DNA of 32,979 nt from Actinomycetota bacterium (GTDB lineage: Bacteria; Actinomycetota; Acidimicrobiia; Acidimicrobiales; Ilumatobacteraceae). Positions within the stretch are counted from its first letter, which is position 1; the number at the start of each line of letters is the position of its first letter. The position numbers and the translations under genes were made by a program. Below, piece by piece: positions 7,926 to 14,584 of this stretch. The notes beneath the pieces were generated by a model. The model was given only the letters and a program-made list of their open reading frames with translations. It was not told the DNA's origin and made no database searches. The stretch spans positions 1-32,979 of the forward strand of contig JAUXQB010000011.1 in the NCBI GenBank assembly GCA_030685215.1, given 5' to 3'.

Positions 7926-9554
7926 TCACTCGGCAAGCGCGGTGGTGGCGAGTTGCTTGGTGGTGGTGTAGTCGGCCTTGCCGTTGGGGGCGCGGGGCAC
8001 CTCGGGCACGAACACCACTCGCTTCGGTGCCTTGTAGGCGGCGAGATCGCGCTTCACGCCGGCGATCACCTCTGCCTCGGTGACACTGGCGCCGGGGGCG
8101 AGTGAGGCCACCGCGGTGACGGCCTGGCCGAACTTCTCGTCGTCGAGGCCGACCACCAGGCAGTCCTGCACGCCGGCGACGCGCTTGACGGCCTCCTCGA
8201 CCTCCTCCGGGAAGATCTTCTCGCCACCGGAGTTGATCACCTGGCTGCCGCGGCCGAGCAGGATGAGCGAGCCGTCGGCACCGACCATCGCCATGTCGCC
8301 GGGGAACGAGTAGCGCACGCCGTCGATGGTGCGGAACGTGCGCGCCGACTTCGCTTCGTCCTTGAAGTAGCCGAGTGGCACCATGCCGCCGGCGGCGACC
8401 ATGCCCACCTCGTCGCTGCCGGGGGTGACCTCGCTGCCGTCGTCCTTGAACACCTTGGTGGTGGGGTTCTGCGTGAACTTGGCGGTGGACGGCGGCACGC
8501 CCTTCATCGAGATGTTGTTGCCCATCGAGCCTTCCGACGAGCCGATGGCGTCGAGCAGGATGACGTGCTCGATGCGCTCGAGCAGCTGCTCCTTCACCTC
8601 GGCGGTCCACATCACGCCGGAGGAGATGATCATCTTCAGTTGCGACAGGTCGTACGGCGTGCCGGCGGCTGCCGCGGCGTCGAGCGCTCGGATGATCGGC
8701 TTCGCGAACGCGTCGCCGACGATGGTCATGTTGGTGACCGCCTCGTTCTGCGCGGTGCGGAGCACTTCGTCGGGGTCGAGCGACCGGCTCTGCAGCGTGA
8801 CCACCTGTGCGCCGCCGAGCTGCGGGATCATCGCGCCCAGCCAGACGCCGGTGCCGTGCATCAGCGGAGCACACGGCATGCTGATGAGCCGCCCGCCCGC
8901 CTCCACCACGTCGCGCACCATCGGAGCGAGGTTGGCCGCCTCCGTGGGCGGGGTGAGCCCCAGCAGCGGGAACCCGAGCGAGGCGAACGCGCGGGTGAGG
9001 CCGCCCATGTCGTACATCACGCCCTTCGGCATGCCGGTGGTGCCGCCGGTGTAGAGCATGTAGATGTCGTTCTCGTCGCGCGTGATGCGCGGCATGGGCT
9101 GCTGGGCGGCGACGACCTCTTCGTACGCCTGCGCGGGCGCCACCTGCCCGGCCATGCCGTCGTCGACCTCGATGAGCAGCTTCAGCTGGGGCAGCCGTGC
9201 GCGCACGCGTTCCACGCGGTCGCCGAGCGACGAGTGGAACACCAGCGCCTCGGCGTCGGAGTTGTCGAGCAGGTACCACAGCTCTTCGTCCATGTAGCGG
9301 TAGTTGACGTTGATGGGCACACCGCGCATCTTGAACGCGGCGTAGTGAGCCTCGAGGTACTCGTTGCCGTTGTACATGAACAACCCGATCTTCGAATCGG
9401 GTCGCAGGCCGGCGGCGTCGTAGGCGCCTGCGATGCGGGCGGCACGGTCGTCGTACTGGCTCCAGGTGAACCTGCGGTCGCCGTGCACGACGGCGGTGTG
9501 GTCGGCGAACGAGTCGGCGAGTGATTCCCAGATGGTGGCGAAGTGGAACTCCAT
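7926..9554 (-). CDS. Acyl-CoA synthetase (AMP-forming, FadD-like)
   Basis: A 542-residue ANL-superfamily adenylate-forming enzyme that activates a carboxylic acid to its CoA thioester via an acyl-adenylate. The AMP motif YTGGTTGMPKG starts at residue 168. Later motifs are GSSEGSMG (adenine pocket), GDMAMVGADGSLILLGR (hinge and ATP Asp), GGEKIFPEEVE and the catalytic Lys in PNGKADY near the C-terminus. Length is normal for fatty- or cyclic-acid CoA ligases such as mycobacterial FadD3-type proteins; the chain or ring specificity cannot be read from the sequence. The start Met at 9554 has TACGCT exactly seven bases upstream. Confidence 0.92.
   Translation of the reverse strand: MEFHFATIWESLADSFADHTAVVHGDRRFTWSQYDDRAARIAGAYDAAGLRPDSKIGLFMYNGNEYLEAHYAAFKMRGVPINVNYRYMDEELWYLLDNSDAEALVFHSSLGDRVERVRARLPQLKLLIEVDDGMAGQVAPAQAYEEVVAAQQPMPRITRDENDIYMLYTGGTTGMPKGVMYDMGGLTRAFASLGFPLLGLTPPTEAANLAPMVRDVVEAGGRLISMPCAPLMHGTGVWLGAMIPQLGGAQVVTLQSRSLDPDEVLRTAQNEAVTNMTIVGDAFAKPIIRALDAAAAAGTPYDLSQLKMIISSGVMWTAEVKEQLLERIEHVILLDAIGSSEGSMGNNISMKGVPPSTAKFTQNPTTKVFKDDGSEVTPGSDEVGMVAAGGMVPLGYFKDEAKSARTFRTIDGVRYSFPGDMAMVGADGSLILLGRGSQVINSGGEKIFPEEVEEAVKRVAGVQDCLVVGLDDEKFGQAVTAVASLAPGASVTEAEVIAGVKRDLAAYKAPKRVVFVPEVPRAPNGKADYTTTKQLATTALAE

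Positions 9555-10098: not shown

Positions 10099-10114
<16 letters not shown>
9605..10114 (-). CDS. VOC (glyoxalase/bleomycin-resistance fold) family protein
   Basis: A 169-residue vicinal-oxygen-chelate protein. After a helical N-terminus of about 38 residues come two beta-alpha-beta-beta-beta modules. The first runs from GVHHAAFLCSDVERTIKFYDGMLGFPL, and the second contains HHHLAISMEPSRWAAARARL and ends in YFRGPDGERLELISD. Candidate metal ligands are the His in VHHAAF, the His in HHLAIS and the Glu in RLELI. Members include dioxygenases, isomerases and glyoxalases; the reaction here is unknown. Its start lies 16 bases inside the end of the pirin gene, indicating one transcript. Confidence 0.85.
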
Positions 10115-10806
<692 letters not shown>

Positions 10807-10822
10807 GACGAGGAGAACATCA

Positions 10823-10834
10823 TTGCGCGCGCAA
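10823..10834. promoter_or_regulatory. Perfect 12-bp palindrome upstream of the pirin gene
   Basis: TTGCGCGCGCAA is its own reverse complement. It lies in the 38-base gap between the HAD-GH18 stop and the pirin start. It could be an operator. Alternating CG makes chance occurrence in high-GC DNA fairly likely. Confidence 0.3.
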
Positions 10835-10844
10835 CTATTCCCGA

Positions 10845-12710
10845 TCAGCCGGTGGTGTCGTCGACCAGAACGGTGTCGGTGGGGCGCGGACGGGCGACGT
10901 CGGTGACCGCATCCCACGTGTCCTGACTGTCGAAGCCGAGCGCCCAGAAGGCCACGCCGCCGATGCGCTCCTCACGGGCGAGGTCGACGCGGGCGCGTGC
11001 ACCGGTCGCGTCGACGTAGTGCACCTGCCGCGTCTGCGTGCACGACACCCCGCCCTCGGACACGTCGAGCTGGTATTGGAAGCTCGCCTCCGCCGTGCCG
11101 GGGTCGTGCTCCGGCGTGGCGCCGCGCTTGTCGACGAGGTCGGCCACCGTGGCCTGCGTGACAGCGGTGGTGCCCTCGGCACTCTCCGGACAGGTGCCGG
11201 TGGTGGCGACGACCCAGTTTCGCCCGTACAGCGGCACGCCGAGCACCAGCTTGTCGTCGTCGTCGACCGCGTCCTTCGCCGCCCGCACCGCACCGCGCAC
11301 CCAGTCGATGGGCGCGATGGGCCCGGCCTCGCCGACCGAGTAGTCGTAGCCCATGATGCGGATGCGATCGACGTGCTCGCCGATGGCGGCGTAGTCGTAG
11401 ACCCAGTAGCCACTCTCCGAGTTGCGGTCGCCGTCGTAGATGGGCGGGATGCTGACGGTGAGCAGCAGACCGTCGGCGTGGAGCGCGGTGGCCAGTTCCT
11501 CGATGAACTCCACCCAGTTCGGTCGGGTGGTGGCCCACGTGGCGCGCTCGTCGGCGAATGCGAACTGCTCGTAGTCGATGTCGATGCCGTCGAACCCACC
11601 TTGTTGCACGAGGTCGACGATGGTGCTCACGTGCTGCGTGCGGGTGGTGGGGTCGGCGAGCACGGCTGCCATGCCACCGGCGGGCATGCCGTCGACGATG
11701 GACGGCAGCACCTTCGCTCCCCGTTCGCGGGCGGCGGTGATCAGCTGCTGTGGCCGTGCGTCGGACGAGTCGGCGTCGAACTCGATGGTGGTGGTGCCGG
11801 TGGCGGAGTACCAGAACGGCGACAGTTCGTGCAGCGTGCTGCCGTGCTGCGTGACGCTGGCGACCGCCTCGGGGAGCACCCAGTACGGCGCCCACGCGCT
11901 GATCGGGATGTCGTCGTACGGCGGCGGTGTGCTGCCCTCGCGGACCGCGTACACCACACCCGCGCCGAGCACGCCGACGGCGAGCAGACCGGCAGCGGTG
12001 CGCCGCCGCCGATGTGCGCGCGTGGTGCGCCGGCGAGCCGACAGACCGAGGGCTTGGTCGTCGAGGTCGAACAGCGAGCGCACCACGGTGTAGCCGCGTC
12101 CGGGTTCGATGTCGACCACGTTCGGCACGGCGAACGTGCGGCAGCCGGCGGCGACCGCGCTGCGTACACCGGTGGGGGAGTCCTCGATCGCGACGCAGTC
12201 CTTGGCGCGTACACCCAGCGCGTCGGCAGCGGCGAGGTACGGCTCCGGGTGTGGCTTGCCGTGGCTGACCTCGTCGCCGGTGATGACCACCTGGAACGAC
12301 CCTGGTGGGAGCGCCTTCACCACCGCATCGGCGAAGCGTTTCCAGCTCATGGTGACCAGCGCGCACGGCACGCCTGCCTTGCGCAGGTCGGTCAGTCGCT
12401 CGCGGGCGCCGGGACGCCACGGCACCCGGCGGTTGACGCGCTCGATCACGCCGTCGAGCAGGCGGTTGACGATGTCGTCGATGGGCAGTGGCACCCCGCC
12501 CCGGTCGCGGATGATCGCGGCGGAGTCGCGGAGGTCGTGCCCGACCAGCGAGTGCGCCTTCTCGTCGTCCCATTCGCCGCCGAATTCGGCGACCAGCGCG
12601 TACTCGCACTCGATCCAGTAGGGCTCGGTGTCGACGATGGTGCCGTCCATGTCCCACAGTACGGCGGCGGGTCGCGCCACGGCGCGGGAGGGCTTCGTGG
12701 CAGGACTCAT
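10845..12710 (-). CDS. HAD phosphatase - membrane segment - GH18 glycosidase fusion
   Basis: One uninterrupted frame of 621 residues joins two enzymes. Residues about 12-222 are a HAD subfamily IA phosphatase with all four motifs: DMDGT (20-24, nucleophile Asp20 and acid Asp22), VTMS (Thr120), Lys152 in HGKPHPEPY and IEDSPTG (176-182). Residues 226-237 are very Arg-rich (ARRRTTRAHRRRR), followed by one hydrophobic segment (about 239-256). Residues about 265-605 are a glycoside hydrolase 18 domain of the YaaH/SleL type with an intact DGIDIDYE motif (catalytic Glu381) and GVPLYGRNW. The positive-inside rule places the HAD in the cytosol and the glycosidase outside. A GTG at codons 209/210 could give a separate GH18 protein with its own signal anchor, so two overlapping products are possible. 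The start Met at 12710 has TAGGTT nine bases upstream. Confidence 0.82.
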   Translation of the reverse strand: MSPATKPSRAVARPAAVLWDMDGTIVDTEPYWIECEYALVAEFGGEWDDEKAHSLVGHDLRDSAAIIRDRGGVPLPIDDIVNRLLDGVIERVNRRVPWRPGARERLTDLRKAGVPCALVTMSWKRFADAVVKALPPGSFQVVITGDEVSHGKPHPEPYLAAADALGVRAKDCVAIEDSPTGVRSAVAAGCRTFAVPNVVDIEPGRGYTVVRSLFDLDDQALGLSARRRTTRAHRRRRTAAGLLAVGVLGAGVVYAVREGSTPPPYDDIPISAWAPYWVLPEAVASVTQHGSTLHELSPFWYSATGTTTIEFDADSSDARPQQLITAARERGAKVLPSIVDGMPAGGMAAVLADPTTRTQHVSTIVDLVQQGGFDGIDIDYEQFAFADERATWATTRPNWVEFIEELATALHADGLLLTVSIPPIYDGDRNSESGYWVYDYAAIGEHVDRIRIMGYDYSVGEAGPIAPIDWVRGAVRAAKDAVDDDDKLVLGVPLYGRNWVVATTGTCPESAEGTTAVTQATVADLVDKRGATPEHDPGTAEASFQYQLDVSEGGVSCTQTRQVHYVDATGARARVDLAREERIGGVAFWALGFDSQDTWDAVTDVARPRPTDTVLVDDTTG

Positions 12711-12755: not shown

Positions 12756-13658
12756 TCAGGTTCCCGCAGCCCACGCCCTGTCGAGGAGCATCGCGTTGCA
12801 GGCGAACGCTGCCAGGGCGCCGTCGGCGATGCCCATCGCCATGTTGGAACGGGCGCTGGCCACGTCGCCGACGGCCCACACGCCGGGTACGGTGGTGCAC
12901 TTCATCGCGTCGGTGACCACGTGGCCGTTGTCGTCGACCGCGCATCCGAGTTGCACGGCGAGTGCGTTGTTGGGAACCGGCAGCTGTGCGAGGAACAGTG
13001 CGCCGATCGGCACGTCGGTGCCGTCGTCCAACTGCACCGCGCGGACCGAGCTGCCGTCGCCGACCACCCGTGCGACGGCTCGCTCCTCCACGTGCACCCC
13101 GTGCGCGAGCAGGTCGGTTCGTTCGGCGTCGTCGAGGCCGTCGTGGAACACCGTGATCCGGTCGCTCCAGCCGGTGAGCACCCGCGCCAGGTGCGGAGCG
13201 AACGCCGCTGCGCCGGTGACGGCGAGATGCGTGTCGGCGTGCTCGAAGCCGTCGCAGTACGGGCAGGTGAACACCCCGCGGCCCCAGTGCTCGACGAGGC
13301 CGGGCGTGTCGGGCGGGTTGTCGTTGGCGCCGGTGGCGAGGATCACCGAGCCGGCGGTGGAACGGTGGCCACCGAAGCCGAAGCGCACGCCTCCGCCCTC
13401 GAGCGACGCGATGTCGGTGACCCGCGCGTCGACCAGCTCGACCGTCGGGTACTTGGAGAGCTCGCTCTCCGCCGCCGCGATCAACTCGGCGGGTGCGGCT
13501 CCGTCGCGGGTGATGAGGCCGTGCGCGTGGAACACCGATTCGTTGCGCGGCCCGCCGCTGCCGATGACCAGCACCGACCGGCGTGAGCGACCCAGCACCA
13601 GCGCCGCGCTCAGCCCGGCGTAGCTGCGGCCGACGACCAGCACGTCCCAGTCGGTCAT
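12756..13658 (-). CDS. Thioredoxin-reductase-like NAD(P)/FAD-dependent oxidoreductase
   Basis: A 300-residue two-dinucleotide-domain flavoprotein. The FAD site begins DVLVVGRSYAGLSAAL (5-20), with Arg-Ser in the usual glycine positions. The ATG motif is at 108-110 (VILATGA). The redox pair is FTCPYC (Cys132/Cys135), placed as in thioredoxin reductase within the NADPH domain. The FAD tail is GVWAVGDVASARSNMAMGIADG. Low-molecular-weight thioredoxin reductase is the nearest well-known family, but no thioredoxin gene is nearby, so the partner may be another disulfide. The ATG at 13658 overlaps the methyltransferase stop (TGATG); GTG 13661 is a one-codon-longer option. The two form an operon. Confidence 0.88.
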   Translation of the reverse strand: MTDWDVLVVGRSYAGLSAALVLGRSRRSVLVIGSGGPRNESVFHAHGLITRDGAAPAELIAAAESELSKYPTVELVDARVTDIASLEGGGVRFGFGGHRSTAGSVILATGANDNPPDTPGLVEHWGRGVFTCPYCDGFEHADTHLAVTGAAAFAPHLARVLTGWSDRITVFHDGLDDAERTDLLAHGVHVEERAVARVVGDGSSVRAVQLDDGTDVPIGALFLAQLPVPNNALAVQLGCAVDDNGHVVTDAMKCTTVPGVWAVGDVASARSNMAMGIADGALAAFACNAMLLDRAWAAGT

Positions 13659-14584
13659 CACTCCACCTCCGTGGGGCTGGCGACCATCACTCGCCGCGAG
13701 GCGTCGACGAACACGCCGTCGCGGTGCAGGAGGCTGCTCGGGTGGTCCGGGTCGGTGAGCACGGTGAGCGCCTCTGCGTCGTCGGGGTCGAGGCGGTCGG
13801 CGAACTGAGCGCGCGCTCGCTGCAGTTGGGTGAGTGCGAACTGGCGCCCCGACGGCGTGAGCGGCGCGGGGAGGTGCACGCGAGCGAGGTGCGAGCCGTG
13901 CACGTCGTACCCGGCAGCACCGAGCATGGTGGGGAACTCCTCGGACGGCACGGTGCCGGGAAGCCCGGCGCGCATGCTGGCGAACCAGGAGGCGGCGACG
14001 GCGTCGAGCCGGGCGGCGAGGCCCGGGCGGCCGACGTCGACCTGGTCGGGGAGCAGTCGCATCGGGTCGCCGAACTCGGTGACCACGAGCTGCCCGTGCG
14101 GTTCGAGATGGTCGCGCAACATGCGCATCACCCCCACCTCGTCGCCGATGTGGTGCAGCGACATCGACGCCCAGATGAGATCGGCGCGCCCGATCGTCTC
14201 CAGCCCGGCGGGAAGCTCGGCGAGGTGCGTGTCGATGCGATCAGACACGCCGTGGTCGGCTGCTCGCCGGCGAGCGTTGCTGAGCATCGCGGTCGAGCCG
14301 TCGACGGCGACGATGTGGGCCTCGGGGAACAACCGGGCGAGCTCGCAGGTGCCGACGCCCGGTCCGCTGCCGATGTCGATGATGGTGCGCACCGGGGGCG
14401 CGTTCGGGTGGCGCAGCTCGCCGGCCCACGCGACGGCGTCGGTGACGAACTGCAGCAGCACCTCTGCCTCCAGTTCCGCGTGGGCGGCCAGTGCCGCCCA
14501 CTCGGCTTCGCCGATGTGGACGTGGCCGTGCTGGTGATCGTGTCGTTGATGGTCGTGGTGGTCGTGCGGTGTGTCGGATGCCAT
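13658..14584 (-). CDS. Class I SAM-dependent methyltransferase with His-rich N-terminus
   Basis: A 308-residue methyltransferase. The N-terminus carries nine His residues within its first 23, in a run of HDHHDHQRHDHQHGHVH, a probable metal-binding tail. The Rossmann core has motif I IDIGSGPGVGTCELA, the acidic residue in IVAVDGSTAM and the post-motif DLIWASMSLHHIGDE. The substrate is unknown. The ATG at 14584 has TAGCGT exactly seven bases upstream and is divergent from an XRE-cupin regulator 48 bases away. It overlaps the reductase gene by one base, so methylation and thiol or flavin redox work are probably coupled. Confidence 0.87.
   Translation of the reverse strand: MASDTPHDHHDHQRHDHQHGHVHIGEAEWAALAAHAELEAEVLLQFVTDAVAWAGELRHPNAPPVRTIIDIGSGPGVGTCELARLFPEAHIVAVDGSTAMLSNARRRAADHGVSDRIDTHLAELPAGLETIGRADLIWASMSLHHIGDEVGVMRMLRDHLEPHGQLVVTEFGDPMRLLPDQVDVGRPGLAARLDAVAASWFASMRAGLPGTVPSEEFPTMLGAAGYDVHGSHLARVHLPAPLTPSGRQFALTQLQRARAQFADRLDPDDAEALTVLTDPDHPSSLLHRDGVFVDASRRVMVASPTEVE

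Follow-up and report, generated by a model that had tools for sequence, protein, structure and literature searches.

The window, that is, the whole 32,979-nucleotide stretch of DNA analysed here, carries on its minus strand a single gene in which an HAD phosphatase domain is joined to a GH18 glycosidase domain through one predicted membrane helix. The frame is uninterrupted over 621 codons. The gene, its parts and its two neighbours are located as follows, with residue numbers referring to the translation.

10845..12710, minus strand: fused HAD-TM-GH18 gene, 621 amino acids, ATG start, stop included (10845-10847)
12126..12662, minus strand: HAD_2 domain (HAD subfamily IA phosphatase), residues 17-195, from Pfam, NCBIfam and AlphaFold2
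12639..12653, minus strand: HAD motif I, DMDGT, residues 20-24, with D20 and D22 kept in every row of the motif census
12000..12035, minus strand: basic cluster RRRTTRAHRRRR, residues 226-237, predicted to lie on the cytosolic side, from translation and charge count
11940..11996, minus strand: single membrane helix, predicted signal anchor, residues ~239-257, from hydropathy and AlphaFold2
10929..11792, minus strand: GH18 domain, residues 307-594, predicted to lie outside, from Pfam, phmmer, AlphaFold2 and Foldseek
11568..11591, minus strand: GH18 catalytic motif DGIDIDYE, residues 374-381, with acid/base Glu381, from the motif census
12756..13661, minus strand: pyridine nucleotide-disulphide reductase-like gene, upstream neighbour, not shown to belong, from NCBIfam and Pfam
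10099..10917, minus strand: pirin-family gene, downstream neighbour also in several relatives, not shown to belong, from Pfam and neighbourhood comparison

The listed start of the pirin gene overlaps the end of the fusion, and a later start appears likelier. Both domains of the fused protein score well above their Pfam cut-offs, HAD_2 (PF13419) with 105.6 bits against 23.8 (E = 4.2e-30) and Glyco_hydro_18 (PF00704) with 101.4 bits against 29.6 (E = 1e-28), and the four HAD motifs can be read in the translation as DMDGT (20-24), T120, K152 and E176-D177, and the GH18 signature DxxDxDxE as DGIDIDYE (374-381). An AlphaFold2 model, built from an alignment of 27 sequences, has a mean pLDDT of 88.7, with 460 of 621 residues at or above 90, and contains a helix at 240-257 flanked by low-confidence linkers (226-243 and 257-260). 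The first-pass annotation, made from the letters of the DNA, had described a phosphatase, a helix and a GH18 domain in one frame, and this is borne out by Pfam and AlphaFold2. Twenty-five other fused proteins align to the window protein at 47-68% identity, which argues that the frame is not due to chance.

The 18 residues before the hydropathy peak include eight basic and no acidic ones, compared with one basic and three acidic among the 18 after it, which predicts an N-in/C-out orientation with the HAD domain inside and the GH18 domain outside. The N-terminal flank is the more positive in 29 of 30 fused proteins, L160 being a tie. The location of the two enzymes on opposite faces of the membrane, as originally proposed, thus agrees with the flank charges and the modelled helix. 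What had been called an Arg-rich stop-transfer region followed by one helix holds for the basic cluster and the single helix; since no signal sequence precedes it, however, signal anchor is the more fitting term for the helix.

The N-terminal part passes the cut-off of the HAD-IA subfamily model TIGR01509 (63.1 bits against 29.4), and a phmmer search against solved structures returned HAD-IA enzymes for it. No specific substrate emerged from the family models, as all equivalogs among the 25 of 29 NCBIfam matches listed scored below their cut-offs, including the best model among these, that of the hexitol phosphatase HxpB (NF008087, 96.9 bits against 191). The window HAD therefore shares motifs I-IV and the subfamily assignment with HAD-IA sugar phosphatases such as HxpB, TM_1254 and the beta-phosphoglucomutase family, but differs in its predicted membrane tether and in passing no equivalog cut-off among the matches listed. 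Another relative in design is the mannitol-1-phosphate dehydrogenase/phosphatase MtlD (PDB code 7ocn), a soluble enzyme with two linked steps. Its HAD phosphatase is likewise N-terminal in a bifunctional enzyme; unlike the window protein, it has neither a membrane helix nor a glycosidase. A HAD phosphatase of peptidoglycan recycling, the MurNAc-6-phosphate phosphatase MupP, is described in text from PMC5371407. MupP is an HAD_2 phosphatase like the window HAD, which nevertheless scores far under the MupP cut-off (NF009696, 52.6 bits against 359).

For the C-terminal part, phmmer against solved structures gave 4wiw (2.1e-27), 5jh8 (9.4e-22) and YdhD (5.8e-20), and the top ranks of a Foldseek search were taken by 4wiw, 5jh8, SleL, a Pseudomonas class V chitinase, SI-CLP and YdhD. 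The GH18 barrel is well matched (E = 5.8e-26 for 4wiw; TM-score 0.83 by target length for 5jh8). The best matches in sequence and fold, SleL/YaaH/YdhD and CvChi47 (5jh8)/4wiw, share the catalytic Glu with the window protein but are not listed with a phosphatase fusion. SleL and YaaH are spore enzymes that bear LysM repeats together with GH18. The window GH18 differs in having none, and Pfam at E ≤ 0.001 returned solely HAD and GH18 families for the window protein. As to the polymer that the GH18 domain may cut, its nearest structures cover both small chitinases and spore peptidoglycan enzymes.

We compared the active-site residues in a census of rows picked by tblastn (30 fused, 16 tandem-class, 11 other HAD and 5 other GH18 rows); the invariant motifs of alignment A1 do not enter the evidence because its rows had been chosen by motif patterns. 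The HAD residues D20, D22, T120, K152, E176 and D177 are kept in 30/30 fused, 16/16 tandem-class and 11/11 other HAD rows, and the GH18 residue E381 in 30/30 fused, 16/16 tandem-class and 5/5 other GH18 rows (51/51). Both the complete set of HAD motifs and the intact GH18 catalytic motif named in the first-pass annotation are seen in the translation, and the HAD motif residues and the catalytic Glu are kept across the fused proteins. The acidic residues around E381 are less uniform. D374 is kept in 27 of the 30 fused rows and replaced in L017, L025 and L041, as it is in two of the 16 tandem-class rows (L153 and L155); D379 is replaced in L021, and the catalytic Glu stays in all six. D377 reads X in L148. 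W589 is changed in L025, the Desertimonas copy in which D374 is replaced as well, and is not covered in L155. These replacements suggest altered GH18 activity in some lineages with D374 or D379 replaced, and the activity of the Desertimonas flava copy may be different.

A conserved fusion among homologues, which the first-pass annotation had proposed looking for, was found in at least 31 of 200 Ilumatobacteraceae genomes searched, across 11 genera (L043 is partial). In this search 106 genomes matched at E ≤ 1e-40, and the fused count covers the fetched loci alone, so that unfetched genomes could add to it. Fused copies occur in the cultured isolate Desertimonas flava (L052, on a 547-kb contig) and in two single-contig genomes, G032 and G074. 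Among the 15 genomes of the window’s own genus (G000-G014), nine hold the whole fused frame and the other six are broken, cut or incomplete. One TAG just after the membrane helix splits the frame in G010 (L019), which leaves its GH18 piece without an anchor, so that the locus has the look of a broken fusion; a contig end cuts the gene within the helix region in G007, an N gap interrupts it in G005, and the fusion gene was not found in G008, G011 and G012, which are 63-78% complete. The window’s genome also holds a second GH18 at G000:C334:9442-10275, in a 539-amino-acid frame, 41% identical over 270-538.

Beyond the family, none of the 286 non-family genomes in a 296-genome phylum sample matched both parts together at E ≤ 1e-35, with up to four candidate stretches scored per genome; 20 matched the HAD part alone and three the GH18 part alone. 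The remark that no standard family has this design is not contradicted by the literature search, which found no description of an HAD-GH18 fusion, although one query was poor because ‘HAD’ also matches the word ‘had’. Judged from these sequences, the domain combination is real, conserved and of long standing in the family, and we found no earlier description of it.

Selection was estimated from 10 fused pairs, some sequences being common to several pairs. The dN/dS values were 0.03-0.21 for the HAD domain and 0.10-0.48 for the GH18 domain. Across the junction (206-233) pN was lower than pS in 10/10 pairs, with dN/dS of 0.10-0.80 in nine and saturation in one, and the basic and transmembrane stretch gave 0.10-1.28, above 1 in two of the 10 pairs. 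This pattern agrees with a junction that is translated and under mild purifying selection, and with a linker under weak constraint. Length differences in whole codons at the junction do not count as evidence here, because the fused rows show them by definition.

The two enzymes also occur apart. We built an HAD tree of 68 rows, consisting of 10 outgroups and 58 family rows selected from search hits rather than at random. The family rows comprise 31 fused copies, 15 pairs of adjacent separate genes, the broken copy of G010, nine HAD genes without a joined GH18 and two rows (L023 and L163) cut by contig ends, whose fused or split state is not readable. Three further tandem loci, L146, L154 and L161, enter neither the trees nor the census. 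Some of the adjacent genes lie in another frame, and others share a frame and are separated by one stop. Each enzyme can be kept alone: in G035 (97% complete) the HAD is present but a GH18 search at E ≤ 1e-3 finds nothing, and G034 (96% complete) has two GH18 copies and an HAD of just 33% identity. Separate genes in relatives, which had been named as an observation that would count against the fusion, are thus partly what we see (15 rows adjacent, nine unjoined, some genera keeping one enzyme alone), but the fusion itself is conserved.

At least eight changes between fused and not-fused states are needed on the HAD tree (seven without L023 and L163, six without G010 too) and at least six on a joint HAD and GH18 tree of 49 rows (five without G010), counts that depend on trees whose deep branches are weak. 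The five g13 genomes form a split clade nested among fused relatives. The separate GH18 frame has, at 15 of 16 tandem-class loci, a start codon ahead of a hydrophobic anchor of its own; the exception is G010, where the stop lies past the helix. The anchor is thus independent of the fusion, and because the separate GH18 gene already has an N-in/C-out anchor, losing a single stop yields a fusion with a permissible topology. Distances in the HAD and GH18 parts correlate, with r = 0.83 for 30 fused rows, 0.88 for 16 tandem-class rows and 0.66 for 49 rows, and 0/2000 permutations were as high each time. This supports co-inheritance of the two parts, although linkage alone would give the same correlation.

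The HAD-GH18 pair occupies two gene contexts. One lies beside putative DisA and Ccr genes, with RecR and DnaX, and includes fused, tandem and HAD-alone forms; these names were read from the sequences. The other, that of the window, contains pirin, VOC, FMN oxidoreductase, PlsY-like and radical-SAM genes and includes fused forms and, in g18, the HAD alone. All of these but the PlsY-like gene were tested with Pfam in the window, and the remaining neighbour names were read from sequences. Within L124-L163 the pair is often found between the putative DisA, a c-di-AMP cyclase, and Ccr, as named from their sequences.

We consider it probable that an HAD-GH18 gene pair has fused into a bitopic two-enzyme membrane protein whose reactions need not be coupled. 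Both enzymes are probably active. The HAD-IA domain would fold in the cytosol and dephosphorylate a small metabolite, probably a phosphosugar, while the basic linker and helix would act as a type II signal anchor that carries the GH18 domain outside. There it would cut beta-1,4 bonds beside N-acetylglucosamine in a polymer near the membrane, most likely peptidoglycan. Fusion would have come about when the pair lost the stop that separated its genes, a direction that we infer, and would be tolerated because the separate GH18 gene encodes its own N-in anchor; the HAD domain would simply gain a tether. If the full-length protein accumulates, as we presume, joining would let the two enzymes be expressed together and in equal amounts and would place the HAD at the membrane. 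The lasting fusion in 9 of 15 genomes could mean that tethering matters in the window’s genus.

Several other readings have to be weighed against an uncoupled pair of tethered enzymes. The first-pass annotation had suggested that turnover of an outside polymer is coupled to dephosphorylation inside, with GH18 releasing or sensing an amino-sugar polymer and the HAD acting on the imported sugar phosphate or being gated through the helix. Two different gene contexts do contain the pair, either joined or adjacent, the divergence of its parts is correlated (which linkage alone could yield), and MupP is among the many HAD models that the HAD part scores to. We nevertheless regard coupling as unlikely, as 15 of 58 rows are separate neighbours and nine have no joined GH18, each half occurs without the other (G035, G034), and in the model a single helix between low-confidence linkers offers no obvious signal path. 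Searches for partners in peptidoglycan recycling point the same way. At E ≤ 1e-20 MurQ matched in one of 25 family genomes. For NagA-like proteins 14 fused genomes were covered at this threshold: nine had a match, two of them (G021 and G024) above the cut-off, and five had none. With no consistent partner among MurQ and NagA, the recycling variant was rejected; coupling is thus not supported by these searches or by the separate forms. Mycobacteria, according to PMC13041923, have no homologs of recycling genes of the Pseudomonas type, MupP being one example. A bolder version, in which the state of the outside GH18 domain on binding or cutting a cell-wall glycan controls the inside phosphatase through the helix, strikes us as highly improbable; if true, wall turnover would set the cytosolic phosphosugar pool, and this control would have been gained by the fused lineages and be missing in the split ones.

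The remaining readings concern the product itself. That the fused chain is made and then cut in a flexible linker, leaving the enzymes to work apart, would agree with the low-confidence linkers (226-243 and 257-260) and with relatives for which separate genes suffice; the linkers differ widely in both length and sequence, however, with no common motif apparent by eye, and we judge cleavage quite unlikely. An internal start near codon 209, yielding a separate anchored GH18 and a minor full-length product, had also been raised, and GTG codons are indeed present at 209 and 210 of the window gene, just as tandem relatives encode the GH18 separately. Linker starts are not conserved, though: none lies in the stretch searched in three of 30 fused rows (L012, L032, L039), and a core GGAGG at fitting distance is found in one of 30 (L041), a weak test since several of the 16 tandem-class controls also have no good site. 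Together with the lower pN than pS across the junction in 10/10 pairs, this led us to reject a conserved internal start, and we hold two products from one frame to be very doubtful. Finally, the window comes from a 340-contig assembly, where a sequencing error or misassembly might have removed a stop, or the gene might be decaying. That the fusion recurs across no fewer than 31 genomes, two of which are single-contig and one an isolate's, excludes the suspected removal of a stop by error, and with motifs intact in the fused proteins and dN/dS of 0.03-0.48 for both domains, an artefact is hardly conceivable.

The separate, adjacent and fused versions of this gene pair form a clean natural series across a membrane. 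They illustrate how one stop-codon loss can add a cytosolic enzyme to a signal-anchored one, and they counsel caution, as fusion need not imply functional coupling.

The HAD half has relatives of its own. It is 54-66% identical to the HAD of 55 HAD-only loci, mostly from actinomycetes (among them Nocardioides, Janibacter, Kineosporia and Cellulosimicrobium), with a few from Acidimicrobiia or unplaced genomes. In other families of the window’s own order the HAD is only 28-39% identical, a contrast that points to transfer out of actinomycetes or to widespread loss. In these HAD-only loci the actinomycete HAD has no GH18 partner and, lying near MshC, PAC2 and ARC, has another neighbourhood than the window HAD. 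Of the 44 HAD-only loci for which 16 kb or more of sequence was available (L055-L122, HAD around 8001-8650), 39 have three or more of nine marker groups within ~8 kb. Counts among HAD-only loci were 39 for PAC2, 37 for M50, 36 for MshC, 31 for ARC and 24 for MetH, the groups being BLAST clusters in which the PAC2 and M50 labels were assigned by reading. One representative each passed the NCBIfam cut-offs for MshC, the Pup-proteasome ATPase (ARC), MetH and three conserved families, and the Dop representative stayed under its cut-off (458.1 against 492.3). This family of HADs thus sits near mycothiol and proteasome genes, and the family models used name no specific function for it.

In the phylum sample, 17 of the 20 HAD-positive non-family genomes were MshC-positive, 14 of the 17 with both within 25 kb (G500 through a second HAD match). 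Five further genomes were MshC-positive without an HAD at the first threshold; in a less stringent search, for which a Nocardioides HAD served as query, three of them proved to have one no more than 15 kb from MshC. We know of no gene assigned to the phosphatase MshA2. This enzyme is named in the mycothiol pathway in passages of PMC4360819, PMC2628429, PMC9736012 and PMC10826361. The synteny prompted the idea that the HAD is MshA2, and our own criterion was that the HAD be present wherever MshC is. An HAD of the actinomycete kind was missing in two of 22 MshC-positive genomes (best match 7.8e-9 in G316, none at 1e-4 in G367), which argues against the HAD being MshA2 everywhere, and this identification was rejected. 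As a lead on the mycothiol phosphatase, the actinomycete HAD is possible on the grounds of its gene neighbourhood.

In the window’s order, all 61 of 61 genomes match the MshC model, the best scores being mostly about 400-437 bits and none reaching the cut-off of 485.1; lower matches to the model, near 250-300 bits, are probably cysteinyl-tRNA ligases. Another fusion of the HAD was seen in an Ornithinimicrobium MAG (L120:7992-9692), where the protein is extended to 567 amino acids and has a HIRAN match at 337-375.
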